From Kiloniella litopenaei (GTDB lineage Bacteria; Pseudomonadota; Alphaproteobacteria; Kiloniellales; Kiloniellaceae): a stretch of 64,000 nt of DNA. Numbering within the stretch: position 1 is the first letter of the stretch; every line of letters begins with the position of its first letter. The translations under genes and the position numbers were made by a program. Below the pieces are notes generated by a model that made no database searches, was not told the origin of the DNA, and saw only the letters and a program-made list of their open reading frames with translations. The DNA lies in contig NZ_LANI01000017.1 of the NCBI RefSeq assembly GCF_000982415.1, forward strand, positions 62,001 to 126,000. Reading direction: 5' to 3'. Of the stretch, positions 19,628 through 36,595 are shown piece by piece.

Positions 19628-20719
19628 ATGACTTACCTTATGCATAACCAGCTTAAGTATTTTTACAGGTTGTTATTAGCCGTTTCTATTTTGGTGTCCA
19701 TGAATGTTGATGGCGGTGCCGATGAAAACTCTGGCTTGGTCAAAAAAGTCAGTTTGGTTCTAAAGTCAGATAATGTCGTGTTACAGGTTAATCGTTCTGA
19801 TATTTCGGATAGCATTGAGTTTTTGAACAAGCTTGATTATCTCGATGTATTAGTTGATGGGTATGTGATCTGTTCAGAAGAGGCAACATTAGTTCCTGAA
19901 AATACAGAGGTCTATTTTGGCACTTACGAACGTGCATTATACGGGACAAGATACCCGGTACATTCGCAAGAGTGGAATAATGCTGCTGTCCAAGGGGAAA
20001 CAAAATATAGCTCTGGACCGCAAGTGTTTAGAGTGCCACTGGAAAATATATCAAATGGACACTCGACATTACGCGTCGATACCAATGAGTTGATGCAAAA
20101 AAAGCTTTTGAATCATTTAAAGACAGGGGAGCCATTAAAGAATTTTTATCAGAATACTCATGAAATCACACTCTCTCGAACTATTACACTGATTGCGGAA
20201 TGTGAAAGCGAGGGGAAACGATCATTTGGTTATGATACTCAAAATGTTAACATTACTGTTCAATATCAAGGTGATCCAGGTTATTCCAATTCAAAGTTAA
20301 TAGATCGACAGCTGTCAAATTTTAATAAGTCATTTTTAAAGCTGACAGATCTATCTGTATTCCGGTCATCGCTGATGTATTCCGGTGCTTGTGATTCTCA
20401 AACAACCCGCCCCGTTAAGTTTTCCTATACGGCTGTTGGGAAAGGGGATATTCGTTTTATTCTGGTTCAAGGCGGAGAAACCATAGCTGGGTCTGAAATA
20501 ATTACGCATAACTCTGAGATTGAAAAAACAGTTCATTCTGAAGTTCTATATCCATTGGGTATGCAAGGGTTTCACAAAGCTGGTCCAGGTTCTTTCGATG
20601 AAATGTCTGCCTATTCTTTTTCGATTAAAGCCCAGATTAAGGAAGCCCGTGGACCCCAATGGGGTGAATGGTTTGATCTTGCACATGAACAGTTTCGTTA
20701 TCATTGTCTCAGTGAATAG
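19628..20719 (+). CDS. Secreted protein, first of two tandem paralogues
   Basis: A 363-aa predicted exported protein with a hydrophobic N-terminus (RLLLAVSILVSMNVDGGA) and a beta-rich mature part. It is clearly related to the next gene: both share an EVYFG/KIYFG strand, a VPL..I.NGH...RV block, FYQN..EI.L.R, and a V.Y.GDP segment, in the same order. Paired Cys residues also correspond (VDGYVICSE here, ADGFVQCGD there; ...AECES; SGACDS; YHCLSE). It begins 6 bases after the VOC gene. I do not recognise a family; a periplasmic or surface-binding role is inferred only from export and fold style. Confidence 0.75.
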   Translation: MTYLMHNQLKYFYRLLLAVSILVSMNVDGGADENSGLVKKVSLVLKSDNVVLQVNRSDISDSIEFLNKLDYLDVLVDGYVICSEEATLVPENTEVYFGTYERALYGTRYPVHSQEWNNAAVQGETKYSSGPQVFRVPLENISNGHSTLRVDTNELMQKKLLNHLKTGEPLKNFYQNTHEITLSRTITLIAECESEGKRSFGYDTQNVNITVQYQGDPGYSNSKLIDRQLSNFNKSFLKLTDLSVFRSSLMYSGACDSQTTRPVKFSYTAVGKGDIRFILVQGGETIAGSEIITHNSEIEKTVHSEVLYPLGMQGFHKAGPGSFDEMSAYSFSIKAQIKEARGPQWGEWFDLAHEQFRYHCLSE

Positions 20720-20737: not shown

Positions 20738-20753
20738 TTGATACAATAGATAC
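20738..20753 (+). promoter_or_regulatory. TTGATACAA/TAGATAC direct repeat
   Basis: TTGATACAA is followed immediately by TAGATAC, giving a 9-base period, 18 bases after the stop of the first paralogue gene and about 230 bases before the second. It matches the doublets at 20951 and 22408. A 10-bp hairpin (20792-20837, one wobble) between it and the next gene could be a terminator for the first paralogue. Confidence 0.4.
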
Positions 20754-20950
20754 GTTCCCTGAAATACGATTGATAAATTTATCATTGATAATAACGCCTT
20801 GATGTTTGGGTAATCTGATCCCGAGTATCAGGGCGTCTTTCTTGGGAGCAATCAAATAAATGTAAAGCCGTTATCTGAATTTTTTTACTTTATTTTGAAC
20901 CTTTCCCGTTTCCATTTCGTCAGACCCTGTAACAACGACATTGAGTTGTT

Positions 20951-20968
20951 TTGATACAACGATTGATA
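20951..20968 (+). promoter_or_regulatory. TTGATACAA...TTGATA direct repeat before second paralogue
   Basis: TTGATACAA (20951-20959) and TTGATA (20963-20968) lie just upstream of the GGAG ribosome site of the 20984 gene. Because it is so close to the start codon, a bound protein could repress, or the site may be unrelated to initiation. It belongs to the group of TTGATAC doublets in this region. Confidence 0.35.
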
Positions 20969-20983
20969 AAGCAGGAGATCAAA

Positions 20984-22333
20984 ATGAATAGGTTCAAAAA
21001 AATATTTCTTGGCGCCAGTGCTGTTGCACTTGGGGTGAGTGTTATTGCTACAAATGCTGTTTTCGCGGCATCCAGTGGAAATTCTGAGTATGTTCAAAAT
21101 GTTGACTTGAGCTTTCCAGGGTATGCCGCGGTTATTAATGTCAAAAATACATCGGGAAGCAAATCCGTAAACAATGTTAATCTACAGGTTCAGGAATCAT
21201 CCATTGAGATTGAAGCAGACGGCTTTGTACAGTGTGGTGATAATAAGAAAATTACGTTCAAAGAAGCCAAGATTTATTTCGGTCCTGTCAGCATGTTTGT
21301 CGATGATATCAATGACAATGGTGCACTGTACCAAAGTGACTACGAAGTCAGTCATAAATCCCGAATTGGACTTGGAAAGTGGATGACAGAGGGCACAAAT
21401 GGCAATGAGAGTTTTATTGTTCCTTTGAATCAGATTAAAAATGGTCACCCAGCCGTTCGTGTTAATCCATTGGAAGAAATCAATAAAAAATTGCAGGCCC
21501 ATCTTCAAGGTGGTGGAACCAAGGTTGATTTCTATCAAAATGATCAGGAAATAGTTTTACAAAGACCTGTTTCACTGGCGGGCTGGTGCCGAAAGTATCT
21601 TGCGCCAGGCAATAACCCCTGGAAAGCTGGCTTTGAGACCCAAAACTTCACCATTCAAGTTAAATATAAAGGTGATCCAGAGATAACAGACAAGCCGATT
21701 TTAAATGCGCAGTTGGGGCAGGTGGGGAATAATCCGCAATTTAATAACAATCAGCCATTGCTATTAAATCAAGCGACATTCCAACCAAATATGCCGCATC
21801 ATATTGGCAAATGTACAGAAGGTACACCCAACCCTAAAATTCGTGTGAATTATAAAGGATCAGGTAAAGGAACGGTTCGTTTTAAAATTGCAGTAAAGAA
21901 TAGTGAAGGAAACTTTGTACTGCCGAACATCTATCTGGGCAGTTACGATTCAGAGAACCAGATTAACAGGCATTTTGATTTCGATTATCCCTTGATTGAT
22001 AAAATGTACAATCATCACGAATACAAGTGGTGGAAGATGATCAATAAAACCTATGAACATGACATGACTATTCAAGCGCAGGTCAAAGATCAGAACAGCG
22101 ATAGCTATGGATCTTGGGTAGAGTTCGGTTCTGCAACCTTCAAGCATCGTTGTACGCCTCAGGTGATCGTTAATGGAGGAAATGCAACGCTTGGCGGGTA
22201 TCAGAATCAGGGTAATGACGATACACAGGATTCAAGAGGTATTCTCCAGAAAAAACCGCAACGGGCACCACTGGGTAAAACAACCGGGGAAACTGATAAG
22301 CCAAAGCGTCTGATAATTCGGACCCCTCAATAA
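20984..22333 (+). CDS. Secreted protein, second of two tandem paralogues
   Basis: A 449-aa exported protein with a clear signal peptide (RFKKIFLGASAVALGVSVIA ... NAVFA before ASSGN). It is collinear with the preceding product: ADGFVQCGDNKKITF, AKIYFGPVSMF, VPLNQIKNGHPAVRVNP, DFYQNDQEIVLQRPVSL and VKYKGDPEITDKPI each have a counterpart. It is longer, with an Asn-rich insert and a ~55-residue C-terminal tail rich in Gly, Gln, Lys and Pro that looks disordered. ATG at 20984 has GGAG 7 bases ahead. A terminator follows. Function unknown. Confidence 0.82.
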   Translation: MNRFKKIFLGASAVALGVSVIATNAVFAASSGNSEYVQNVDLSFPGYAAVINVKNTSGSKSVNNVNLQVQESSIEIEADGFVQCGDNKKITFKEAKIYFGPVSMFVDDINDNGALYQSDYEVSHKSRIGLGKWMTEGTNGNESFIVPLNQIKNGHPAVRVNPLEEINKKLQAHLQGGGTKVDFYQNDQEIVLQRPVSLAGWCRKYLAPGNNPWKAGFETQNFTIQVKYKGDPEITDKPILNAQLGQVGNNPQFNNNQPLLLNQATFQPNMPHHIGKCTEGTPNPKIRVNYKGSGKGTVRFKIAVKNSEGNFVLPNIYLGSYDSENQINRHFDFDYPLIDKMYNHHEYKWWKMINKTYEHDMTIQAQVKDQNSDSYGSWVEFGSATFKHRCTPQVIVNGGNATLGGYQNQGNDDTQDSRGILQKKPQRAPLGKTTGETDKPKRLIIRTPQ

Positions 22334-22407: not shown

Positions 22408-22425
22408 TTGATACAATTGATACAC
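22408..22425 (+). promoter_or_regulatory. TTGATACAATTGATACAC direct repeat
   Basis: This is the most regular copy of the TTGATAC doublet, with two 9-base units differing only at the last position. It is 82 bases upstream of the GTG start of the barrel-like protein gene, a suitable place for an activator or repressor site. Confidence 0.45.
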
Positions 22426-22506
22426 TTTGAATTATTGTTCAGAATACTGATTCCTATAGTATCTTGGTGTAAATTGTACGAAGTCTGCCTTGGGGAATAT
22501 TCGGGC

Positions 22507-24591
22507 GTGCGTTTGAAAACAAGAAAAAAGATGCGGTATTGGGGCGGTCTTCTGACAACGGCAATGTTTTTGCCGTTTTTGTGCGTTCAGCCATCCATGG
22601 CAGATTGGTCCGCAAATTTTACACCGCCTGATGCACCCGATGGAACATTAGTTATTGATCTGCCTGATGACCTTGATGTCGTAACCTTAACCCAGCTTGG
22701 TGTGGAGCTGGATGGTATAGATATTACATCACTTCTTTCGCTTGATGGTGTTGATTTTATATACAAACCTCTTCAAGCGTTGGATGGAAATGAACATACT
22801 CTCAAATTAGTAACATTAAACCCGGATGGCTCGTCAGAGGTAAGGCAGCAATGGAATTTTAATGTGGGCCATGCTGAAAGTTCTGATGGCAATATTTCTG
22901 ATCTAACTGAAAATAGTCCAGAGATTGAAATGGCCGAGCGGTTATTGCGCTCCGCTTACTTTCGGGCTGATACGTTAACAGAATTCAGTCGCCGTGTGGT
23001 CCAGCAAAATATCGGGCATGAAACCAATCGTTCAACCCTCTCTGGCAGCGGTGATATCAATACGGGTTTTGCAGCCGGGAAATGGACTGTTGACGGACAT
23101 GCAAATTACCTGGTGCAAAGCGATGTCGATTTCGCGCAGACAGAACGTACTATCGATTTAGGTGAATACGATATAAACGCGGATTATCAGGGGGATAGTG
23201 TTGTCGGTGGTATGTCTCTCGGCCATCATGATACCGGATTGGAAACATTGCTTGTTTCTGATTTTTATCGCCGTGGCGTTTCCGCTCGACTAGGAACCAG
23301 TAACCGCAGGATAGAGGCACAGGGATTTGCTTTTGGGACTGAATCTGTCTCTGGTGCCGCAGATCCAACAGGCCTTAACAATACAGAAAATCGTCTCAAA
23401 GGCGTTAGCCTGGCCGTAAAGCCTTTTTCAACAGATGTAGATGCGTTGAAATTAACGGGTACTTACTATGATGGACGGGGCGAGGGGAGTGGCATTGGCC
23501 TCTCAGATTTGGATAGTTCTGCGTCCGGTTCTGGCTGGGGTGTCGGTCTCGAGAAAAGCTTTGGGCAAAACAGAACCCGTTTAAAGGCTCAATATGCCCA
23601 TGCTTTGTTTGATCAGGATGGTGATAATGGAGATGCCCCAAAAGACGGCAGTGATGCGATTTCATTTTTGATTGAACATGGTTTGTTTGAAGAAGGCCCC
23701 GTCATTGGTAATGACGTGCTCGATATTGATGTCGGTTTCGGGTATGACCGTGTTGATACTTTTTTTGAAAGTCTTGCAAATCCTGGCTTGGTTTCTGACC
23801 GCGATGCCTATTCTGCCTATAGTAACCTTTATTGGGGGGCGCTATCCGCAAATATTTACGCGCTTCATGAAACCAATAATGTTGATGACCTCGCAAATGT
23901 GCCAACAGATCGTCTAAAGAGCATTGATTTGGGTCTGAATTATACTTTTGACCAACAGACAGGATTGATGGAATGGCTTGGGACACCTTATATTTTTATG
24001 AATAGCTATCTTGCAAGTTTGGGGCGTGTGAAAACGCCGACTGGCTATGATGGTGGCGACACAGATAATTTATCTTCATCCATAACACTGGGTGGTGGAT
24101 CGAACTATGACGACTGGTATTGGTCTGCATCCCACAGTTATTCTCGTTTTGATGACTATACGAATGTATCAAGTGACACAGTTAACAATCTGACAGGTTT
24201 TAACGTGGGTTGGATTGTTTCTGACCGGCTGGATGTTAATGGCGGGACACAATTCGGGGTGTTTGAGGACCTTGATACAAATAAAAACAGCTTTACTACA
24301 AACCTTTATCTGGGGGCGACAGCAGAGCTTGTTCCCGATAAAGTTGACTTGAATATTGATTATAATTTGAACCTTGCGAACGGTAGCGGCGACTCATCTG
24401 ATAGTCATATCGTTAATAGCGAGGTAGAATGGACCTTCCTTCAACCTCGCACCAATCGCCCAGGTTTGGCATTGGCCCTAAGAGGATCAATGGAGGAATT
24501 CAATGGAAACACAGACAGTGCTCAAAATGAAACAGAGTATCAAGCCTATATGGTTTTGCGCGTTAAAGCACCATTTTCACTTAGCTATTAA
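22507..24591 (+). CDS. Outer-membrane beta-barrel-like protein with N-terminal soluble domain
   Basis: A 694-aa product. A signal peptide (basic MRLKTRKKMRYW, hydrophobic stretch, cleavage near PSMA before DWSANF) precedes a ~100-residue soluble domain rich in Asp (VIDLPDDLDVVTL, GVDFIYKPLQAL). A long region of alternating hydrophobic/polar strands follows, ending APFSLSY, i.e. a C-terminal aromatic residue as in many outer-membrane proteins. GTG at 22507 is chosen for GGGGAA 9 bases upstream; a TTG at 22408 would lie inside the TTGATAC repeat. The last 89 bases overlap the next gene. The family is not recognised; the barrel is inferred. Confidence 0.75.
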   Translation: MRLKTRKKMRYWGGLLTTAMFLPFLCVQPSMADWSANFTPPDAPDGTLVIDLPDDLDVVTLTQLGVELDGIDITSLLSLDGVDFIYKPLQALDGNEHTLKLVTLNPDGSSEVRQQWNFNVGHAESSDGNISDLTENSPEIEMAERLLRSAYFRADTLTEFSRRVVQQNIGHETNRSTLSGSGDINTGFAAGKWTVDGHANYLVQSDVDFAQTERTIDLGEYDINADYQGDSVVGGMSLGHHDTGLETLLVSDFYRRGVSARLGTSNRRIEAQGFAFGTESVSGAADPTGLNNTENRLKGVSLAVKPFSTDVDALKLTGTYYDGRGEGSGIGLSDLDSSASGSGWGVGLEKSFGQNRTRLKAQYAHALFDQDGDNGDAPKDGSDAISFLIEHGLFEEGPVIGNDVLDIDVGFGYDRVDTFFESLANPGLVSDRDAYSAYSNLYWGALSANIYALHETNNVDDLANVPTDRLKSIDLGLNYTFDQQTGLMEWLGTPYIFMNSYLASLGRVKTPTGYDGGDTDNLSSSITLGGGSNYDDWYWSASHSYSRFDDYTNVSSDTVNNLTGFNVGWIVSDRLDVNGGTQFGVFEDLDTNKNSFTTNLYLGATAELVPDKVDLNIDYNLNLANGSGDSSDSHIVNSEVEWTFLQPRTNRPGLALALRGSMEEFNGNTDSAQNETEYQAYMVLRVKAPFSLSY

Positions 24592-25696
24592 GCTTATTCT
24601 GTTCTTCGGTGTTTTGTCCGGGGCTGGACTTGCCGTGCCAATGATTGCTGAGGCTAATGTGAGCTCGGTGACTGTTTCACCTCAGCGTGCGAATGTTAAT
24701 GTGAAGGGGGCATCTGCCCTTTCGTTGACGTGGAATGTTACAAGGTTTGAACCTACGGCCCCGACGACTGTTTTGGTTAGCTCGACAAATGCTGTTCTTC
24801 AGATCAATGGTTCTACTGTTGCGAATTTAGGCGGTCTTTTGTCCAGGCAATCTTCTTTAGCGGCGGCGCAAAGCGAAACACTGCGCTTTAACGAAGTGCT
24901 TTCAATTTCGCCAGCATTGGCCAGAAAAATTGCCGAAGCTCCTGCTGGATCTGTTTTGATCTCTAGAACTTTTACGGATACGCAAACAACAGGTTTGGCA
25001 AGGCTTTCCGTTTTTGCTGGTACGGGGCAAGGTGGTGCGCTTAGCATTAATCGTATTGATCTAAAGTTCGACAATGATGCCAGAACGGATGTGATCGCCA
25101 AAGGTGATACAAGAAGAGCCATCGCAGAGATCAATTTCCGCAGTAGCGGCCTTTTAAAGGGCGAGTGGCGGATCATTGATCCTTCTGCAAGCCTGGGCAG
25201 TGCACGTGGTCGTATCCTGCAGGTTGTGCGTCAACAGGTTGTTAGCTCGGGACAGGGAAGAACCAGAATAGTAAGTCCAGCCTTACCGACAGCTAAGAAC
25301 GGTCTCTATCTACTGACATTTAGTGTCGAAGATGCAGATGGTATCGCTGAACTTCCTGTATTGAGATACTTTGTTCTGGAAGGCGCAACCGATAGGCCGC
25401 GTGACAATCTGACTACACTAAGCCCCGGTAATGGTGCCCGAGTTAGTCAGGATACTGTTTTTGCGTGGGAAAATGTACCTGGTGCTCTTGCCTATCAGAT
25501 TGAAATATTCAATCCGGGTCACAGCAAGGTGGTTTCAGGCAAGGTCGTATCCGCCAAGGATCTGAAGCTCAGACTTTCCGCTTTTTCTCTGGATAATCTG
25601 ACATCCGGCGAAAGTTATGACTGGCGATTACGGGCCTTTGATCAAGAAGGACGCGTTATCGGGTCTTCGCCCCGCCAATTAATATATATGCCATAG
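24503..25696 (+). CDS. Exported protein with C-terminal fibronectin-III-like domain
   Basis: A 397-aa product starting inside the 3' end of the barrel gene in another frame. A GGAGGAA site 4-6 bases ahead of the ATG at 24503 fixes the start. A hydrophobic stretch (LAIKLILFFGVLSGAGLAVP) then Ala-rich cleavage region suggests export. The middle is beta-rich (VSSVTVSPQRANVNVKGAS), and residues ~300-397 resemble an FN3/Ig-like domain (FAWENVPGALAYQIEI ... YDWRLRAFDQEGRVI). The 89-base overlap with the barrel gene implies tightly coupled expression, so the two products may form one surface complex (inference). No family recognised. Confidence 0.75.
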   Translation: METQTVLKMKQSIKPIWFCALKHHFHLAIKLILFFGVLSGAGLAVPMIAEANVSSVTVSPQRANVNVKGASALSLTWNVTRFEPTAPTTVLVSSTNAVLQINGSTVANLGGLLSRQSSLAAAQSETLRFNEVLSISPALARKIAEAPAGSVLISRTFTDTQTTGLARLSVFAGTGQGGALSINRIDLKFDNDARTDVIAKGDTRRAIAEINFRSSGLLKGEWRIIDPSASLGSARGRILQVVRQQVVSSGQGRTRIVSPALPTAKNGLYLLTFSVEDADGIAELPVLRYFVLEGATDRPRDNLTTLSPGNGARVSQDTVFAWENVPGALAYQIEIFNPGHSKVVSGKVVSAKDLKLRLSAFSLDNLTSGESYDWRLRAFDQEGRVIGSSPRQLIYMP

Positions 25697-26262: not shown

Positions 26263-26880
26263 ATGAAAAAGGAAATTGAAGAGCTGTTGCCGTTTTATGT
26301 AAATGGCAGCCTAGAAGGTGAAGAGCTTGAAACTGTCAGAAAAGCCCTGGCCGAAGATGAAACCCTTCGTGAAGAGTGTGCTTTTCTTGAGAGTATGAGA
26401 GACGAGGTTCAAAATCAGGATCTTGGCTTATCACCGGGTGAATTTGGATTAAAACGCTTACAACGGGATATTGCGAAAGAAAAAAATATTGATACACAAC
26501 CCGTTCCGCAAAATGACAACCGCAGAAGCGGTGTATGGAAGATTGCTTCAATTGCAGCCTGTATTATGTTGCTTGTCCAAACAGCTTATGTTGTCCCGCT
26601 ATGGCAACAGAACAATGATTTGGTGGCGGCTAGCGGTGGTAATGTTGCCCCTGTTCGTGGGCCTGTTCTCTCGGTTACTTTTGTGCCCGAGGCACAGGAA
26701 GAAAATATTCGGGAACTGTTGCTGGCTGTTGATGCCCGTATTGTTGACGGTCCTTCTGCACTGGGCGTTTATAAACTTGCTGTACCAAAGCACCCCGAGG
26801 CAGTTATTTCAAAGCTTCTGGCCCATAAGAATTTAGTGGAAACCGTACAAAGAGACGGCGGGGAAAGTGGTGGGAAGTGA
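26263..26880 (+). CDS. Membrane anti-sigma factor with subtilase-propeptide-like C-terminal domain
   Basis: A 205-aa single-pass protein. Residues 1-50 (EEIEELLPFYVNGSLEGEE-type helices) resemble a zinc-less anti-sigma domain; the usual H-x3-C-x2-C is absent. One membrane helix spans about 91-113 (WKIASIAACIMLLVQTAYVV). The periplasmic part (133-197) reads LSVTFVPEAQEENIRELLL, then ARIVDGPSALGVYKLAVP and a final helix-strand, the pattern of subtilase propeptide (inhibitor I9-like) domains. GGGAGG precedes the ATG at 26263. It lies between its sigma factor and a subtilase gene, whose start overlaps its stop (TGATG). Confidence 0.85.
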   Translation: MKKEIEELLPFYVNGSLEGEELETVRKALAEDETLREECAFLESMRDEVQNQDLGLSPGEFGLKRLQRDIAKEKNIDTQPVPQNDNRRSGVWKIASIAACIMLLVQTAYVVPLWQQNNDLVAASGGNVAPVRGPVLSVTFVPEAQEENIRELLLAVDARIVDGPSALGVYKLAVPKHPEAVISKLLAHKNLVETVQRDGGESGGK

Positions 26881-28406
26881 TGTTACGCTATTCTATGACA
26901 CTCCTTGGCTTCCTTTTGATTTCAGTGGGATGGGTGCAAACTCTTTCCGCGCAAACATCGGTTGACCCTACGGGTATGGTGCCCGGAACGACACCTTCGG
27001 TCGATCGTTCCCCAAACCCCGGGATGCCAGAGACTAGAGAACCCGGGGGAATAGTTTTTTCGGGTCTTAGGGCAAGTTGTGTTCGCCCCGGCACGATCCT
27101 TACCATTCAGGGTAAGAATTTTGACACCATGTCGCATAATAATCGACTTGGGCTGAATAATGCTGGCAAGTTGATAGAACTGGAAATTCTGAATAAAAAC
27201 AAAACACGAATTTCGAGCTATCTGCCCAAAAATAATGTTGAGTTTAATACCTCTTACGACCTTGTGTTCTATCAAAAGAGTAATGAATACACGTTTAAAC
27301 AAACTGGATTGAGTGTTCGAACTTGTCCGGCAAACGATATAACCTCTAATGATAGATCGGTCGTACAGGATGTTATTATCCTTGTGGAAGAAGCACAGGA
27401 AAATCCGGTTCGATCAGAGCTGCAAAGACGCGGTTTGCCGATTGTAGATGTGTATAGCTTAAATGCCTTGCAGTCAGTATTAATCCATACACGCGCATCA
27501 AATGCCGTAACTGTTATTCAGGAATTAAGAGTTGTTTTCCCGGATGCCGAGATTGATTTAAATAATGATCTTACTGCTTCTGCCAAACCACGTTTATATG
27601 CGCACAAGACCCTTGGTTGGACGTCAGATAGCGGGTGTCAAAATACACAACTAGGATTTCCCATAGGTTTATTGGATGGCGCAATAGATCAAAACCATTC
27701 AGCCTTTGCAGACCAATCCATTGTATCCCGAAATTTTTTAGGCGATCAAAAAATTGACCTAAACCATGCAACATCAATAGCATCTATTTTGATTGGCAAT
27801 AATCAGGAACAGGGCTATCAAGGGCTCATTCCTGGGACAAACATATATAACGCGGTGGTCTTACGGGTTTCCAGTTCTGGTGACCAGTTGGCCAGTACGG
27901 TTGCTGTTCTGCAAGGGCTTGATTGGCTGCTCTCTCAGCAGGTTCGCTTGATTAATGTTTCGCTTAGTACAGCAACAGCGAACCGGGTACTGAACAAAGG
28001 TTTTATTCTTTCGATAGAAAAGGGGGCTATTGTCTTTTCAAGTGCAGGGAACCAAGGTCCGGAAGCCCCTGAAAGTTATCCGGCTGCTTTGGATGGTGTT
28101 TTTACAGTGACAGCGATTGATTCCCGGCAAAAAATCTATCGCGATGCCAATCAGGGTGACTTTATTGATTTTGCCGCACCTGGCGTTGATATCTGGGCTG
28201 CGACACCTGATAACAAGGGGGCTTATGTATCGGGGACATCTTTTGCGACGCCTCATGCACTGGCCGTTGCGTCTCTTATCCTGAAAAACAATTCAAAAAT
28301 TTCTCGTCAGGTCTTGTCGCGTGCTTTGTCTTTTTCTCTGACCGATCTTGGCGTTCCCGGAAATGATCCGGTTTTTGGTGCCGGGTTACTTAAAGTTACT
28401 TGTTAG
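26880..28406 (+). CDS. Subtilisin-like (S8) serine protease, exported
   Basis: A 508-aa exported protease. Signal peptide (LLGFLLISVGWVQTLSA); a region (~60-145) resembling an IPT/TIG-type Ig domain (GTILTIQGKNFD); a possible prodomain (~160-235); then the S8 catalytic domain. Likely triad: Asp266 in IGLLDGAID, His296 in LNHATSIASIL, Ser454 in VSGTSFATPHA; oxyanion Asn391 in SSAGNQG. The usual Gly after the catalytic His is Ala, a mild change, so activity is expected but not certain. Coupled to the anti-sigma gene by TGATG. A role in processing surface proteins or the anti-sigma factor is inferred. Confidence 0.9.
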   Translation: MLRYSMTLLGFLLISVGWVQTLSAQTSVDPTGMVPGTTPSVDRSPNPGMPETREPGGIVFSGLRASCVRPGTILTIQGKNFDTMSHNNRLGLNNAGKLIELEILNKNKTRISSYLPKNNVEFNTSYDLVFYQKSNEYTFKQTGLSVRTCPANDITSNDRSVVQDVIILVEEAQENPVRSELQRRGLPIVDVYSLNALQSVLIHTRASNAVTVIQELRVVFPDAEIDLNNDLTASAKPRLYAHKTLGWTSDSGCQNTQLGFPIGLLDGAIDQNHSAFADQSIVSRNFLGDQKIDLNHATSIASILIGNNQEQGYQGLIPGTNIYNAVVLRVSSSGDQLASTVAVLQGLDWLLSQQVRLINVSLSTATANRVLNKGFILSIEKGAIVFSSAGNQGPEAPESYPAALDGVFTVTAIDSRQKIYRDANQGDFIDFAAPGVDIWAATPDNKGAYVSGTSFATPHALAVASLILKNNSKISRQVLSRALSFSLTDLGVPGNDPVFGAGLLKVTC

Positions 28407-29490: not shown

Positions 29491-32400
29491 TTAGCCAACA
29501 ACAATCGTATGTTCGTCGTTATCTAGTATCACGGTCAGGATATCTGTTGCACTGACATTTTCCATAACAGCAATTTCTGTATAGGTAACGCCGTCACTAG
29601 AAATTTCCAGTGATGTGCTTGGTCCTGTATCCGTTGCCCGGATAAAGTTCGCGACAACATCCGTATTGTCATCAAAGACAACAAGGTCACTGACGTCCAG
29701 AATATCACCCTCGCTATTGTCATAATCAGTGATGGTATCCACATCAACACCGACACTCTGACCATAGAAGAGGAAGGTATCCGCCCCGGTGCCACCCGTT
29801 ATGTTGTCTGATCCTGCTCCTCCAACAAGCAGGTCATCACCTGCTCTACCGTCGAGGAAGTCATCACCGCCATTTCCGTACAGATTGTCATCAGCAGGGA
29901 CGAGGGCTGTAGAGATAGCTTCACCTTCAGAATTATCGCTATTACCTACACGATCATAAACGCCAGTTGAAGTTGTGCCATCACTCCAGGTGACGGTAAA
30001 AGTAACACCACCGTCACCAAAATCATCACCATCATTACCGCTTAGATTATCAACATCTATATTGAAATCAAACCAGTCACCAACCCCAAAAGAGTTTCCG
30101 CTAAAATTCATTGTAAGGGTCGAACTTATCGTGTTTGTTGGTGAGAAAGTTACATCTCCTGATGATAGGCCAGAACTGTTATTAAAAGAAGGCCCATAAT
30201 CTGAGCTTCCAAGTGAACCCGCAGGATCAAAGTAAGCGTTAGTATCACTACCACCTTGTAAATCGATAACAATCTGCTGTATGTGTTCACCGGCTGCACC
30301 AGCTGCTAAATAAAAGCGAAGGAAATCATTATTATCGCGACCACCTTCGCCACGTGCAGTAGCGACCAGTCGACGTGTCACAATTTCCATAGTATCGCGA
30401 CCAATGAGAATTTCATCCTGATCGCTACCAACGACAGTATCTGTTTCACTTCCTCTGTTACCACTGACCCGTTTTACGTCAACTCTGGCATCATCAGGTG
30501 ATTCAAGGCCATTCTGTTCTAGGTCATAGTGAAAATGCCTGTCCCCGGAACCAGCTGAGGCAAAATCAAAGATCACGTCATCTGTGTCCATTGAAACACC
30601 ATCAGAACCATGAGCGTTTAGGTTGATAAAATCAGGTTCAGGACTTGGATCATCCATAAAGTTATCATTTATCAAGAGCGCCGCTTTGGCAATTGACAAA
30701 GGATCACCAGAGAGATCATTTGTCAGTACCAGATCATCGCTTGTTTCGGGTGGCTCTGGCAACGTTACACAGACCTTCAGATCTGCGGAAGAAGGATCGC
30801 CGTCACCATCGACCATGGTATAGACAAAGGTTTCTTCATAATCGCCATTAACTGACCCGGGTGCGGTATAGGTGTAATCACCTGTCGCTGTATTAACCAC
30901 CAACTTACCGCCTTCGGCAGTTGTTGCGATGGTGATGATACCATCACTGCTACCATCCCCGGCATCTGTATAGGTTACACCGTCGTGGAGTACTTCGGTA
31001 ATTGCCGTTGTGCCAAAACCATCGGCGCCCGGTACATCATTAGCCAAAAGATTACCACTGGCATCTGTGCCGCCAATTGTATCGTCCAGAGCATCAGCAA
31101 GGTCGTTATAGTTCGGGACACTGACAAAGGTATAGAGGCTTGCGGGGATTGAAGGGTTACCTCCGTCACCGCCGCCAGTGTTAAGGAAATAGTCCTCTAA
31201 CCCGTCTTCAACCGAAGAGTTTGAACCTACGGCAACACCCGTAACCTGAATGTTGTTATCAACAATGGCAGCTGCAACGCCACTATCAATTTCATCATCG
31301 TTGCCCGTGTTAGTGTCATTTGGGCTACCGTCACTGATGAAATAGAGGTGATTTTCAGCTGAAGGCATACTCATTACAGGGTTGTCCAGATATTCTGAGC
31401 TGCCGCTGAACATAGACGCCATTCCAGCATCATAGTTGGTTGACCCTGAACCATCATAGGCCCCGTAAATGGTGGTCAGTTGGTCATCTAACGTAACCGA
31501 TGACAAGGTGCCATCATTGTTGAGGCGTTTGAAATCGTCCAGATCCAGTGTTCCGCCTGCAAAGCCATCAAATACAAAGGTTCCATAGTCCTCGGCATTG
31601 GTACCAAAGGTAACCAAAGAGAATGCCAATGTATCCAATGCTGTACTTTCAGCGACCAGATTATCAATAAAGCTGCGGACACCATTGATCTGGGTCTGAT
31701 AGTTTGTTTGACCAATCGATCCGCTTTCATCAATAACAAAGGCGATATTAAGCGGTGGTGTTTCACCGGGCAGGGCGACAAGGCAAATCTCGTCATTGTT
31801 TGCAACCGGTTCATCGTCCTTGATGCAAATTGTTAGATCTGCAGAGGATTTATCGCCGTCGTTATCAAGGATAGAATAGGTGAATACATCATCAACAACG
31901 TCATCTGTTGCTGATCCCGGTGGGCCATGTTGCACTGATGGTTGGCTGGTGTAGGTATAGTCACCAACAGCATTGCTACCCTGATCATCCATGTAGATTT
32001 CAAGGGTACCTTTGGATGATGTAACGGTTAGCAATTTGGTGCCGTGATCATAAGTTGCTGATGGTGTACCCGTTGTCGGGCCAGTAAGTACCCCGGCGTC
32101 ATCAACACTAAAGGTCGTTCCTTCGACCTCAATATCACAGATACGGTCAAGTCCATCGGCGCCAATTTCGTCATTTGTGACGACGTTGCCACTAACGCTA
32201 TTGCTCAATCCGATTGTGTCGACCAGAACATCAGCAAGATCTTCGAAGGATTCAGCGTTTAGAACTTCGCCGTCGTTGGCAACAACACCACCATCAAAGA
32301 AATCGACAAAATCACTTGGCTGGACGCCTCCACCAATACCAACAGCGGTAAAACCAATGTCGCCGTCAAGAAGGTCCGCTTTACCACCGCTATCCAAGAC

Positions 32401-35400
32401 GATAGATGCATTGCTTAGTGGTGATGCGCCGTCGTTCTGCTCCCCATCACTGAGGAAGAAGACCTGGTTATTTGCACCAGGAACATATTCAAAGTCCCCA
32501 CCGCTGTCAGAAAAGAGCATTTCCATAGCTGCTTCGTAATCTGTTGCACCAGAGTCTATGATGCCGCGGCTGGTACCATCCAGTGCAGCCTCTGCAGAGG
32601 CCAGATCAGTGAAGGTCCCAAGGTTCGCAGCATCAGCACCAAAGGCCACAAGTGTCACGGAAACACTTGCACCCGAAGCAAACAGCGTCTGGATAAAGGT
32701 TTTAACGCTGGCAATTTCTGTGGCCAAGTCACTGTCGCTGACTGACCCACTGAAATCCATCACGATACCAATATTTTGCGGTTCTGCGTCCGCTTCCACT
32801 TCCGTGACACACTCTTCATCGTCGTGGGCAGTTAAGCCGTCATCTTTAACAACGACATCAACGGATCCCCAGTCATAATCCCAGTCTCCGTCGACCAGTT
32901 TCACTTTGAACTGCATTGGCAATGAATCGTTGTGATCGTTTCCATCAGAATGTTCTAACGCGATAAATTGCTCGTACTCATAAGTACCATCAGCATTAAC
33001 AGTGAAGGTGAAGGCAATGTCGCCTCCAGCCCAACCAGTCAGAACATTACCGACTTGTGATGTCGTAATTGGCGTATCTGTTTCAGCTGTTGTTATGCCA
33101 CTGGTATCGACACTGATCTTGATGGCATCATTATGTGGAGTCCAAGGATAGTCCGTTTGTGGCCCATCGGCCCCAAAATCAAAGGTATCAAAAGCACCGC
33201 CATCCTTGATTGAAGCATTTGTGTTCAGGTCAGTCTCATCGACCATCACCATTTCCTGGCCACCAATATCTGGTCCATCATCCAAGACTTTAACGATGAC
33301 ATTGCCATAGGCTTTGTCTCCATCACCATCCTTGATCCGGACGGAAAATTTCATGCCGATTGGTTCGTTATGGTTATAGGGATTCCAGTGTTCTAACGCT
33401 TCATATTGTTCGTAGCTGTAAGATCCGTCCGGGTTTACAGTAAACCGGAATACTTCTTCGCCATCGGCTGTACCGATCAGTGTGTCGCCGGATTGGCTCG
33501 TACTAACAGCATGATTCCCGTCCGATGTCCGGATCGTACCAAGAGAGAACATGCTGATACGGATGTCGTTAATGGCCGGGCCGTCTGCGCCGAAATCAAA
33601 GGTATCAAAGACACCAGAGTCTGAAATAACCGGGCCATTATCAAAATCGGTTTCATCAACACAAAGGAACTCATGCCCGCCGATTTTAGGACCATCATCA
33701 TCAAAATTGATGCGTAGTTTTCCGATATTACTCTGGTCACCTTCATCATCAACAGCAAAGAACCTTAGTTTCATTGTGTTGATGTCTTCGTCGTGAGAGT
33801 AAGGGTTAGGGTGTTTGAGCGACAGGTATTGTTCAACGTAAATGTTGACATCATTCTCGCCATTTGTGAGTTCGGCATCAATTGTCACAACAAAAGCCAA
33901 CTCACCATCTTCGCCGCCGACACGTCCATAGATAACCGAAGGATCAGAGTCAGAAGAATAGAGATTGATATGTGAACCATCTGTGGTTCTTACGCCACTG
34001 TAAGCGCCATCATAATCAATGAAGCGAATGTCTTCCAGATCATCAGGTGGGGAGAAGCTGGGACTTGAAGGAGCATCAGTATCTAAAGGTCCATCAGAAC
34101 CATCTGCTTCATCATTGGAGCCATCTGTATAAAGGTTCAAACCATCTGCGATCGATGTAAAGCCTCGGCTTACAATTTCACCGCCTAATGTGCCGTCCGC
34201 TGCCATCGCCGCAGATAATACTGTCTGTGCATCTGAAACACCTGGAACATCATTGGCAGCACGCCATTCATCCCAAGTCTGAACGCCATCGGTTTCATCC
34301 AGATATAGTTTTGCATAACGCACAATGTCTGGAACATCTTCTTCTATATCGAAAATGAAGCTGCTTTCTGCAATAGCAGTATTGTTTTCGATCGTTAATT
34401 CGTCGGTTCCAACATCTGTTTCCTGTTCTTCTGCAATGGCTTGAACCGTGATAACAACTGGACCGTTTGTATGTGTAGGGCCTTCCTGATAGCGGCCACC
34501 GTCTTCCGGCTCAGAGGGTAAAACGACAGATTGTTCATCTGTTAGTGCCGTTACAACTGGCGTTTCACCACCTTCACCGCCTTCGCCACCTTCGACATCT
34601 ACGCCTGTAGTTGTGTAGTCGTTGGTATTAAATGCGACTAATCCGCCAAAGGTTGTGAAGTCAACGGTTTCAGAGGGATCAAGATCTGGATCATCTGGAT
34701 CTGGAAGATCACCTGTGTAGCGAATAATATATTGAACCAATTGCCCTGGTTCTTCAGCCAATATGCTGTCCTCACCACCTTCGCCACCGTCATCAGGAAT
34801 TGGATCAGGTGTAATGGGGCCAAAAAGTTCCCACCCTTCGGGTAGCGTTGTGCACTCTTCGTTAATAGTAAAGGCCGCCGGAATACCAGAGAGAACGAGG
34901 GTTAAGGTTTCGGATCCATCTTTGTCGCAAAGTTCAGCATTGATGGGAAGCTTAATAACACTTTCTTCGTTAATAGGGTCGTTCAAGCCACCGTTTAAGA
35001 ATACTTCATTGTCGTTCTCGGAAGGAAGGTCAGTAATCTGATCTTTCACTAAAAGATCGGGATAGCTGTATTCACCGCCTTCACCACCTTCACCACCTTC
35101 ACCACCTAATGATAGCAATGGCATATCAGCAACTGCATCTATAATAGCTTCGACAGAATAGGGGAGTACGGCTGACAGTCCTGAATCTGGATCCGTAATA
35201 ACCGCGGTTCCGGAAACATTGATATCTTCATCGGAATCAGGGGGGGGAAGAATATAAACATCCCCTAAATCAGATGCATCGATGACTGCTGGGAACCCGC
35301 CTCCGTATTCATCGCCTAAATCTGTACCGCCAATGAATAAGCGGGCACCATCTGGTAATGGGTCCATTACGACAAAATCGAGAGTTTCATTATCAGCAGG

Positions 35401-36183
35401 GACAAAAGTAAATATGACCTGCATCGGTGCTGCGACAGCCTCTAAAGAATCTTCGCCGCCTTCGCCACCAAAGGGGTTATCATCTTTGCCTTCATCGCCA
35501 CCGGGTAAATGCTGGTTTGGTAGCCAGTCTTCAAAACCACCAGCAAAGGTGCCTGATATGCCACCCTCATAATCAGGAACTTCAGTTTCTGTTGTTATAA
35601 AGGTAACGTCCAGTGTTCCTTCAGCAGGATCGGTGTTTTCATCAATCCCATCAAGAAGTCCAAAGTTTAATTCTGTTGGGCCAATAATGCCTTGGGCAAT
35701 GAGCAGGTCGATAACACTACCCGTGTCTTCACTATAAACACTACCACCGCCACCTGCGGGGCCAGCACCTGCACCAGCTGCTGTTTCAAGTGGTAAATCC
35801 CCAGCCTGCGCCAGAACAAGACCTATTAACTGACTGGCGGCAACTTCTGTTCCATCAATGATAAGAAGGGGCGCTTCATCATCAGAAAAATCACCAGCTA
35901 GATTTTCGAAGACAATGCTACTTTCAGGGGTACCATCGTTGTTGAGGTCAAAATTCAAGACTAAATTCTGTCCATCGACAACGGCAGCTGCTTGTGTTGC
36001 ATCAAAGTTGAGCTGTAATCGTTGACCTGCCTGTGCAGTTATTGACTGGGATGTTCCAACGGCGGGTAAATCTATCGAGAGTTCCGTGGCTTCTTGGCCT
36101 ACAGCAAGAATTGGTTCTTGTTCTAACGCTTCAATCTCAGATGTAGCGTCGCCGGAATTACGGGGTGTGTTTGAATCTGACAT
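29491..36183 (-). CDS. Giant RTX adhesin: LapA-like retention region, VCBS-like repeats, two vWA domains
   Basis: A 2230-aa acidic, Cys-poor protein. Residues 1-150 resemble the retention module of LapA-type adhesins, with TAAG at 134-137 before a Gly-rich linker, the form of a LapG cleavage site. Gly-Gly-Glu tracts separate Ig/cadherin-like domains to about residue 830. Two similar ~140-residue VCBS-like repeats follow, sharing DDGP.IGG and FDTFDFGADGP. Two vWA domains (about 1135-1330 and 1477-1700) have MIDAS motifs DFSGS and DESGS. RTX nonapeptides (GGDDFLDGRAGDDLLVGGAG, about 2100-2140) precede the type I secretion signal. Start at 36183 is fixed by GGAGG; no secretion genes are nearby. 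Confidence 0.92.
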   Translation of the reverse strand: MSDSNTPRNSGDATSEIEALEQEPILAVGQEATELSIDLPAVGTSQSITAQAGQRLQLNFDATQAAAVVDGQNLVLNFDLNNDGTPESSIVFENLAGDFSDDEAPLLIIDGTEVAASQLIGLVLAQAGDLPLETAAGAGAGPAGGGGSVYSEDTGSVIDLLIAQGIIGPTELNFGLLDGIDENTDPAEGTLDVTFITTETEVPDYEGGISGTFAGGFEDWLPNQHLPGGDEGKDDNPFGGEGGEDSLEAVAAPMQVIFTFVPADNETLDFVVMDPLPDGARLFIGGTDLGDEYGGGFPAVIDASDLGDVYILPPPDSDEDINVSGTAVITDPDSGLSAVLPYSVEAIIDAVADMPLLSLGGEGGEGGEGGEYSYPDLLVKDQITDLPSENDNEVFLNGGLNDPINEESVIKLPINAELCDKDGSETLTLVLSGIPAAFTINEECTTLPEGWELFGPITPDPIPDDGGEGGEDSILAEEPGQLVQYIIRYTGDLPDPDDPDLDPSETVDFTTFGGLVAFNTNDYTTTGVDVEGGEGGEGGETPVVTALTDEQSVVLPSEPEDGGRYQEGPTHTNGPVVITVQAIAEEQETDVGTDELTIENNTAIAESSFIFDIEEDVPDIVRYAKLYLDETDGVQTWDEWRAANDVPGVSDAQTVLSAAMAADGTLGGEIVSRGFTSIADGLNLYTDGSNDEADGSDGPLDTDAPSSPSFSPPDDLEDIRFIDYDGAYSGVRTTDGSHINLYSSDSDPSVIYGRVGGEDGELAFVVTIDAELTNGENDVNIYVEQYLSLKHPNPYSHDEDINTMKLRFFAVDDEGDQSNIGKLRINFDDDGPKIGGHEFLCVDETDFDNGPVISDSGVFDTFDFGADGPAINDIRISMFSLGTIRTSDGNHAVSTSQSGDTLIGTADGEEVFRFTVNPDGSYSYEQYEALEHWNPYNHNEPIGMKFSVRIKDGDGDKAYGNVIVKVLDDGPDIGGQEMVMVDETDLNTNASIKDGGAFDTFDFGADGPQTDYPWTPHNDAIKISVDTSGITTAETDTPITTSQVGNVLTGWAGGDIAFTFTVNADGTYEYEQFIALEHSDGNDHNDSLPMQFKVKLVDGDWDYDWGSVDVVVKDDGLTAHDDEECVTEVEADAEPQNIGIVMDFSGSVSDSDLATEIASVKTFIQTLFASGASVSVTLVAFGADAANLGTFTDLASAEAALDGTSRGIIDSGATDYEAAMEMLFSDSGGDFEYVPGANNQVFFLSDGEQNDGASPLSNASIVLDSGGKADLLDGDIGFTAVGIGGGVQPSDFVDFFDGGVVANDGEVLNAESFEDLADVLVDTIGLSNSVSGNVVTNDEIGADGLDRICDIEVEGTTFSVDDAGVLTGPTTGTPSATYDHGTKLLTVTSSKGTLEIYMDDQGSNAVGDYTYTSQPSVQHGPPGSATDDVVDDVFTYSILDNDGDKSSADLTICIKDDEPVANNDEICLVALPGETPPLNIAFVIDESGSIGQTNYQTQINGVRSFIDNLVAESTALDTLAFSLVTFGTNAEDYGTFVFDGFAGGTLDLDDFKRLNNDGTLSSVTLDDQLTTIYGAYDGSGSTNYDAGMASMFSGSSEYLDNPVMSMPSAENHLYFISDGSPNDTNTGNDDEIDSGVAAAIVDNNIQVTGVAVGSNSSVEDGLEDYFLNTGGGDGGNPSIPASLYTFVSVPNYNDLADALDDTIGGTDASGNLLANDVPGADGFGTTAITEVLHDGVTYTDAGDGSSDGIITIATTAEGGKLVVNTATGDYTYTAPGSVNGDYEETFVYTMVDGDGDPSSADLKVCVTLPEPPETSDDLVLTNDLSGDPLSIAKAALLINDNFMDDPSPEPDFINLNAHGSDGVSMDTDDVIFDFASAGSGDRHFHYDLEQNGLESPDDARVDVKRVSGNRGSETDTVVGSDQDEILIGRDTMEIVTRRLVATARGEGGRDNNDFLRFYLAAGAAGEHIQQIVIDLQGGSDTNAYFDPAGSLGSSDYGPSFNNSSGLSSGDVTFSPTNTISSTLTMNFSGNSFGVGDWFDFNIDVDNLSGNDGDDFGDGGVTFTVTWSDGTTSTGVYDRVGNSDNSEGEAISTALVPADDNLYGNGGDDFLDGRAGDDLLVGGAGSDNITGGTGADTFLFYGQSVGVDVDTITDYDNSEGDILDVSDLVVFDDNTDVVANFIRATDTGPSTSLEISSDGVTYTEIAVMENVSATDILTVILDNDEHTIVVG
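35070..35107. repeat. 9-bp in-frame tandem repeat encoding Gly-Gly-Glu
   Basis: The plus strand shows CCTTCACCA-type units repeated four times, encoding GGEGGEGGEGGE on the minus strand. Related shorter tracts occur in the same gene at about 34567-34600, 34771-34791 and 35456-35470. The 9-base period allows length change by slippage without breaking the frame. Confidence 0.75.
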
Positions 36184-36595
36184 TCTAGCCTCCTCGGGCT
36201 CTTCGTATTGGCACCGCCTTTTCAGGCAACTCACTCAGGCCATGGTTGAGGAATATGACTTAAATATCTTATCAGTATTTAAAATTTTATATATAAATAA
36301 TCTCTAAAAAACTACATATCATTGTGTTATATTTTTAGAATATTGCGTTAAATGTTAATATTTGTAAGAAAATATTCATAATACTGTTTATTGAGTAATT
36401 GTATTAAGGGTTCGATTATTGTTGTTTGTTGGGGTGGATATTTTGCATTATCTTTAGTAAGTGTTTTTAATGCGTAATTTTATTGGTCGTTATTAATATA
36501 GGGGGCGTGCTTGATGGGGACATCAAGTCCGATATCTTGCTTCTTGTCGTAGATTTCTATGGCTATTTTTTTACCGATTGTATTCTTGTTGCGAT
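36184..36595. other. Long A/T-rich region upstream of the adhesin gene
   Basis: A 412-base stretch between the adhesin gene and the MFS gene, both leftward. It contains the adhesin ribosome site (GGAGG near 36190), a run of A/T-rich sequence (36260-36500) that should hold the adhesin promoter, and a short 7-bp hairpin at 36510-36527 without a T run. No supported ORF or RNA gene was seen. Confidence 0.6.

Follow-up and report, generated by a model that had tools for sequence, protein, structure and literature searches.

The periplasmic domain of a membrane anti-sigma factor of Kiloniella litopenaei appears, together with its relatives, to resemble the prodomain of subtilases, and its gene is found beside that of a protease in a broad range of genomes. 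This single anti-sigma domain accompanies two unrelated protease clans, S8 subtilases and C14 caspases. We tentatively propose, with a confidence that stops a little short of even, that the domain, tethered to the membrane, serves as a prodomain-like docking module and couples the protease encoded beside it to the release of the sigma factor. The window refers below to the whole 64,000-nucleotide stretch of K. litopenaei DNA that was analysed.

Gene organization of the locus

Three consecutive genes on the same strand encode an ECF sigma factor, an anti-sigma factor with one transmembrane (TM) stretch and an exported S8 subtilase (Table 1). A preliminary description of this DNA, made from the sequence alone, had reported the coupling of the last two genes by TGATG and had recognized a secreted S8 protease in the downstream product. 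The sequence indeed has the anti-sigma stop codon TGA (26878-26880) overlapping the start codon ATG of the next gene (26880-26882), whose product matched Peptidase_S8 (4e-25) and begins with a signal peptide as read by eye. The top NCBIfam match of the sigma factor was PRK12515 (1.5e-43, 148.5 bits for a cut-off of 236), and the protein is 97% identical to the sigma factor of a K. majae locus (L059).

Profiles place the second protein below their curated scores, with 33.7 bits for the anti-sigma family NF052375 over residues 8-118 (cut-off 100) and 17.1 bits for zf-HC2 (cut-off 22.2), and no zinc ligands were seen by eye in the window copy. It was therefore filed as an anti-sigma factor on its architecture and gene order, namely a gene following that of an ECF sigma factor and a product composed of a cytoplasmic part, one TM stretch (by eye) and a periplasmic domain. 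The linker between membrane and domain is a candidate region for a first cut; AGG, ASG or LSG motifs were read by eye in many relatives within the 55 residues preceding strand 1, and this motif is taken as a hint only.

Table 1. Features of the locus, with coordinates given as nucleotide positions in the window
Feature	Position	Strand	Remarks
Outer-membrane-barrel-like secreted protein, 727-aa frame	22408..24591	+	by eye
Secreted protein of the cluster, 397-aa frame	24503..25696	+	true start maybe later
Alternative TTG start of the ECF sigma factor	25706		possible
ECF sigma factor, 183 aa	25709..26260	+	Sigma70_r2 7e-12, Sigma70_r4_2 1e-11
Membrane anti-sigma factor, 205 aa	26263..26880	+	ATG at 26263
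Single transmembrane stretch, residues ~91-113	26533..26601	+	by eye
Short periplasmic juxtamembrane linker	26602..26664	+	AASGG small-residue motif
Prodomain-like beta-alpha-beta-beta-alpha-beta domain, residues 135-198	26665..26856	+	AF2 model
DGPSALGVY hairpin, residues 162-170	26746..26772	+	
C-terminal tail GGESGGK, 7 residues	26857..26877	+	Gly/Ser-rich, low pLDDT
TGATG overlap of anti-sigma stop and S8 start	26878..26882	+	
Exported S8 subtilase, 508 aa	26880..28406	+	signal peptide by eye
Prodomain-like region of the S8 subtilase, residues ~158-232	27351..27575	+	weakly similar to anti-sigma domain
Catalytic Asp266 (27675), His296 (27765) and Ser454 (28239)	27675..28241	+	

A prodomain-like domain in the anti-sigma factor

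The C-terminal part of the anti-sigma factor had been described as following the pattern of subtilase propeptides, and the two stretches quoted in support of this view are both present (residues 136-154 and 158-175). AlphaFold2, supplied with an alignment of 77 domains (A3), predicted a strand-helix-strand-strand-helix-strand succession with block pLDDT values of 93-96 in the core. This is the strand and helix order of the subtilase prodomain family PF22148, and on this point the predicted fold agrees with the preliminary description. The alignment leaves out four of 81 rows, one with frame breaks (L065), two at a contig end with no clean frame (L085 and L106) and one that is divergent (L132), and identical rows were likewise liable to removal; a further copy (L056) with a different C-terminal domain was present in the first alignment and then removed.

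PF22148 (Fervidolysin_NPro-like) was the commonest Pfam match, found for 38 of the 77 A3 members at E<=1 when these were scanned singly, the runner-up family reaching 4/77. It also matched 5 of the 31 domains added by sampling across the phylum (A5; best E value 4.2e-6), and its curated score of 21 was passed by at least two members (L173 with 27.5 bits and L084 with 21.2 bits). Taken singly, the window copy gave a weak match (E 0.14, 13.0 bits) that fell behind a chance-level match to another family (0.074), and the Pfam scan of the full-length window protein (P0001) returned no PF22148 match; the prodomain claim is thus made for the family. Judged from these profiles, the pattern of the domain exceeds chance at the family level, with the fervidolysin-type prodomain as the nearest family. 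The propeptide resemblance consequently stands through the relatives, and the window copy on its own and the I9 type mentioned in the preliminary description do not sustain it: Inhibitor_I9 was absent among the matches listed for A3 (the best 25 of 33 families) and for A5 (all 10). Searching PDB sequences with the domain profile yielded three matches, all at chance level (best E 0.54), and the full-length protein yielded none.

Conservation within the domain is highest in the hairpin and at Phe140. Among 108 aligned domains, the hairpin pattern GPxxxGxY had its first G in 106, P in 100, the second G in 106 and an aromatic residue (Y/F/W) in 106, and it is common to the S8-linked and C14-linked groups. 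In the loci read by eye, the domain terminates a short protein and is preceded by a hydrophobic stretch; it is not placed N-terminal to a catalytic domain in one chain, as prodomains are.

All 57 partner proteins matched the S8 profile, with D266 and S454 invariant and H296 conserved in at least 90%. Most of them bear, by eye, a prodomain-like region of their own ahead of the catalytic domain, and PF22148 matches only 2/57. Comparing the anti-sigma domain with this region by hhalign (108 and 84 rows) gave a probability of 36.7% and an E value of 3.6e-4 over 63 columns, against 0.6% for the catalytic domain and 1.2% for the sigma factor used as controls. The same comparison gave 3-5% with the smaller first sets; when the C14-linked domains were taken by themselves, the probability stayed below 1% and no real alignment resulted. 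These profile alignments lend moderate support to a shared descent of the anti-sigma domain and the S8 prodomain-like region.

Association with protease genes across genomes

Within the order of the window, the anti-sigma factor was found in 22 of 61 genomes. Of 26 loci examined there, 22 had an S8 match, including the one (L056) with a different domain. These 26 loci largely overlap the 80 obtained with the full anti-sigma profile (the best 80 of 170), for which the gene following the anti-sigma factor encoded an S8 protease in 59, a C14 protease in 14 and neither in 5, two loci ending with the contig. As for the five, the contig of L122 breaks off within a frame whose N-terminus looks exported (by eye), L101 has its S8 gene upstream of its sigma gene, the contig of L097 is short, and the orphan copies L100 and L111 have no sigma match.

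Because the anti-sigma part could bias this sampling, the domain was also searched alone. An even draw of 398 genomes across the phylum yielded 32 with a match, one of them the genome of the window. The 32 loci read in the remaining 31 (L167-L198) comprised 28 with S8, three with C14 (adjacent in L169, ~1.5 kb away in L196 and ~2 kb away in L187) and one with neither; L167 repeats L102, and extra matches in G284 and G380 were not counted separately. A further 200 genomes from another order gave 17 matching genomes and 16 places not yet read, with S8 in 12, C14 in one and neither in three; one of the 16 (L219) repeats L133, to judge by the length and genes of its contig. The linkage with subtilase genes in other genomes, which the preliminary description had proposed as a check, was thus recovered in each of these samples. 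Neither S8 nor C14 was found in the fetched region for the carriers L195, L218, L221, L232, L100 and L111.

Gene order varies, the S8 gene being mostly downstream of the anti-sigma gene, upstream of the sigma gene in L171, L174 and L101, and divergent in L172. The S8 linkage spans alpha-, beta- and gammaproteobacterial records, a Mariprofundaceae bin (L102) and a Nitrospiria bin (L094), and anti-sigma identity to the window among S8-linked loci falls to 26-30%. Four loci (L078, L083, L088 and L092) have the anti-sigma/S8 pair although the region retrieved around it gave no sigma match, and in the genome of L078 (G037) a Pfam search over about 7.5 kb to either side did not find sigma region 2; these pairs point to the anti-sigma factor and the protease as a unit. 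As a background, four genomes contained 61 sigma-region-2 hits and 9 S8 hits, with five sigma hits within 3 kb of an S8 hit: three are the present system and two are divergent pairs placed like RpoE6 (distances taken from tables).

To our knowledge, the roles of bacterial caspases are mostly unknown. In a betaproteobacterial group (14/80 loci, among the best 80 of 170), a C14 caspase replaces the S8 protease beside the domain, which is therefore not restricted to subtilases. Four C14 proteins, including the second caspase gene of its locus (L104:7506-8831), were confirmed as PF00656 (3.8e-37 to 1.5e-39), and the rest were identified by phmmer. On a sigma tree of 104 rows, built by a quick method, with several long branches and unrooted as to the direction of replacement, the S8/C14 label needs two changes, against a mean of 15.1 after shuffling. 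One odd row (L196) has a doubtful sigma assignment and a long branch, and the simplest reading of this tree would be one main replacement of the protease clan.

C-terminal tails of the domain

Tails were compared in two sets, the A3 relatives (set 1; 58 S8-linked and 14 C14-linked rows) and the phylum-wide domains (set 2; 27 and 3 rows, respectively). In set 1, 41/58 S8-linked domains end at most two residues past the last strand and 17/58, including the window copy, extend by at least three; the corresponding numbers in set 2 are 11/27 and 16/27. The median tail is 0.5 residues for S8-linked and 7 for C14-linked domains in set 1, and 5 and 7 residues in set 2, the contrast between S8 and C14 being confined to set 1. 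A rank test on tail lengths gave p 8e-7, which is no proof since the rows are relatives of one another.

An AEP-like motif, which is typical of prodomains, closes several of the set-2 domains. The window tail, GGESGGK, is not conserved beyond the genus. C14-linked tails (L104, L116-L119, L121, L124-L128, L134-L136) are 6-11 residues long, with LP/VP-x-R/K in 9/14, and metacaspases cut after Arg or Lys. This motif is a hint only, because the C14 rows are close kin and set-2 S8-linked domains often have 7-residue tails too. The flush-ending S8-linked copies have no peptide equivalent to the one that a canonical prodomain places in the active site, so inhibition by a tail in the active site is disfavoured for them; for the window copy, with its 7-residue tail, plain inhibition is less favoured.

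Conserved neighbouring genes

Two secreted proteins encoded upstream of the sigma gene recur in related loci. By BLAST clustering, in which contig ends clip some loci, the 397-aa type was found in 42/81 loci including the window and the 727-aa type in 40/81. All Pfam matches of the former lie under the cut-off, and the Pfam scan of the latter returned no match. Conservation of these upstream genes suggests that the circuit may govern a surface structure.

Further upstream, two neighbouring frames (19628-20719 and 20951-22333) encode related secreted proteins of one BLAST cluster, and the Pfam scan of the second returned nothing over the cut-off. Direct repeats of the TTGATACAA(T) type occur at 20738-20755 and 22408-22425, upstream of two cluster genes, and are conserved in four Kiloniella relatives (L057-L060); the motif TTGATACAAY occurs six times in the window for 0.41 expected, three of these outside the cluster. 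The repeats are a possible regulator site. Downstream of the cluster, on the minus strand (29491-36234), a 2247-aa frame displays, by eye, two von Willebrand-like stretches and RTX-like glycine-rich repeats, and its BLAST cluster covers 6/81 loci.

Comparison with known systems

The closest arrangement that we found in print is the ECF26 system RpoE6-EcfR6/SMa0142 of S. meliloti (PMC6180224), which also associates an ECF sigma factor, a one-TM anti-sigma factor with a periplasmic C-terminal domain and an adjacent S8 protease. There, expression of SMa0142, the serine protease gene next door, goes up by 4.7 (log fold change) when RpoE6 is overexpressed, the SMa0142 promoter is tabulated, and the sigma-subtilase arrangement is described as widely conserved among ECF26 (PMC6180224). 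SMa0142 is homologous to the window S8 protease (7.9e-47) and the two sigma factors are distantly similar (1.6e-7), but the S. meliloti protease gene is divergent whereas that of the window is co-oriented, and the EcfR6 periplasmic domain differs, with no match to the A3 domain profile at E<=10. No GGAATA-type site was found directly upstream of the window sigma gene, and the ECF26-type promoter GGAATA...CGTY had one match in the window for 1.07 expected. Having neither a divergent S8 gene, nor an EcfR6-type domain, nor a GGAATA-type promoter, the window was not retained as an RpoE6-type ECF26 system. GGAAC...CGTT occurs five times in the window for 2.41 expected, two of the sites overlapping at 26985-27011 inside the S8 gene. 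Homologous divergent S8 genes beside an anti-sigma factor with another periplasmic domain were seen in L199 (S. meliloti pSymA 70000-85000) and L056, which indicates that the linkage does not depend on the domain.

Other comparisons bear on parts of the system. The anti-sigma domain matches the PF22148 prodomain by profile in relatives and by predicted strand and helix order, but it stands in trans, on a membrane regulator, and often lacks a tail reaching the active site. A likeness is proposed to RsiV, the lysozyme receptor anti-sigma factor (PMC5014341), which controls its own destruction through the binding of an enzyme to its outer part; RsiV senses a foreign enzyme, whereas the present system encodes its own, a protease. 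For RseA and DegS (PMC8103513), a periplasmic cut of a one-TM anti-sigma factor is followed by intramembrane proteolysis, which is the route proposed here, but DegS, with its PDZ domain, belongs to the HtrA proteases and is neither S8 nor C14. ECF54 sigma factors lie near subtilase and caspase-like (CHAT) genes, as in the present loci (PMC8999054, in part). Neighbourhoods of sigma factor, anti-sigma factor and serine protease are thus already in print; a prodomain-like or caspase-linked anti-sigma domain was not found in the titles and abstract beginnings that searches of open-access literature listed, which leaves its absence in print unproven.

A proposed signalling route and its alternatives

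A functional anti-sigma/protease pair is the most likely interpretation, because the domain is prodomain-like and remains linked to the protease gene despite rearrangements, even where no sigma match lies nearby. In the proposed route, the anti-sigma factor would hold the sigma factor at the inner membrane while exposing a subtilase-prodomain homologue in the periplasm, and this domain would serve as a docking site for the protease of the same cluster, S8 here and a C14 caspase in the betaproteobacterial group. Docking would tie the presence or activity of the protease to the proteolytic removal of the anti-sigma factor, most likely through a site-1 type cut in or beside the juxtamembrane linker, after which ordinary intramembrane proteolysis would free the sigma factor, and this would transcribe the cluster's genes for the protease and for surface proteins. 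Binding, signal direction, cut site and regulon are all steps that we infer. Docking is favoured over classical inhibition because many copies lack an active-site peptide and the domain is kept with a caspase; action of the protease on the anti-sigma factor through docking is the favoured direction. Against this route stand the S8 homologue beside EcfR6, whose periplasmic domain is another one, the pairing with C14, the carriers with no protease found nearby, the weak match of the window copy and the moderate profile similarity to the S8 prodomain-like region. Since RpoE6 switches on the protease gene in S. meliloti (PMC6180224, in part), the protease is probably an output of the sigma factor too, and by this analogy a feedback is possible.

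That the protease might be nothing but such an output, the domain sensing something else and its prodomain resemblance reflecting a common small fold, seems to us rather unlikely. It would account for the induction by RpoE6 of SMa0142, a homologue of the window S8 protease, next to an anti-sigma factor with a different domain (PMC6180224, in part), and for the retention of the domain beside C14, but not readily for a commonest Pfam match that is a protease prodomain, for S8 or C14 near 31/32 and 13/16 loci in domain-only sampling, or for anti-sigma/S8 pairs persisting where no sigma gene was found nearby. A true membrane-tethered inhibitor, silencing the mature protease in the periplasm as a propeptide does and being cut or released on demand, appears improbable. 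Although prodomain similarity, gene coupling, AEP-like ends in several set-2 domains and tails of sufficient length (17/58 and 16/27 S8-linked domains in sets 1 and 2, the window included with 7 residues) are consistent with it, 41/58 and 11/27 have no peptide reaching the active site, the window tail is unconserved, and most S8 partners own a prodomain-like region by eye.

We give very little credence to the genes being coincidental neighbours, that is, a generic periplasmic anti-sigma module and a protease gene inherited with no functional link. The two label changes over 104 rows of the sigma tree do imply that much of the linkage is shared descent, and a few carriers have no protease nearby; against this, the S8 linkage extends across distant records (anti-sigma identity to the window down to 26-30%) despite changes in gene order, and where the neighbour is not S8 it is again a protease.

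Extended beyond the window, the docking reading would define a class of anti-sigma factors across Pseudomonadota in which a prodomain tethered in trans is both receptor and substrate and the protease a direct input to transcription, the betaproteobacterial caspase version keeping the domain with mostly Arg/Lys-bearing tails; we advance this wider claim as a doubtful but real possibility. Should it hold, signals would be received by a propeptide module, and bacterial caspases would gain a defined, testable signalling circuit. The system would also offer a concrete candidate for the first-cut protease in a widespread group of sigma systems, and its two genes form a pair open to testing in a heterologous host.
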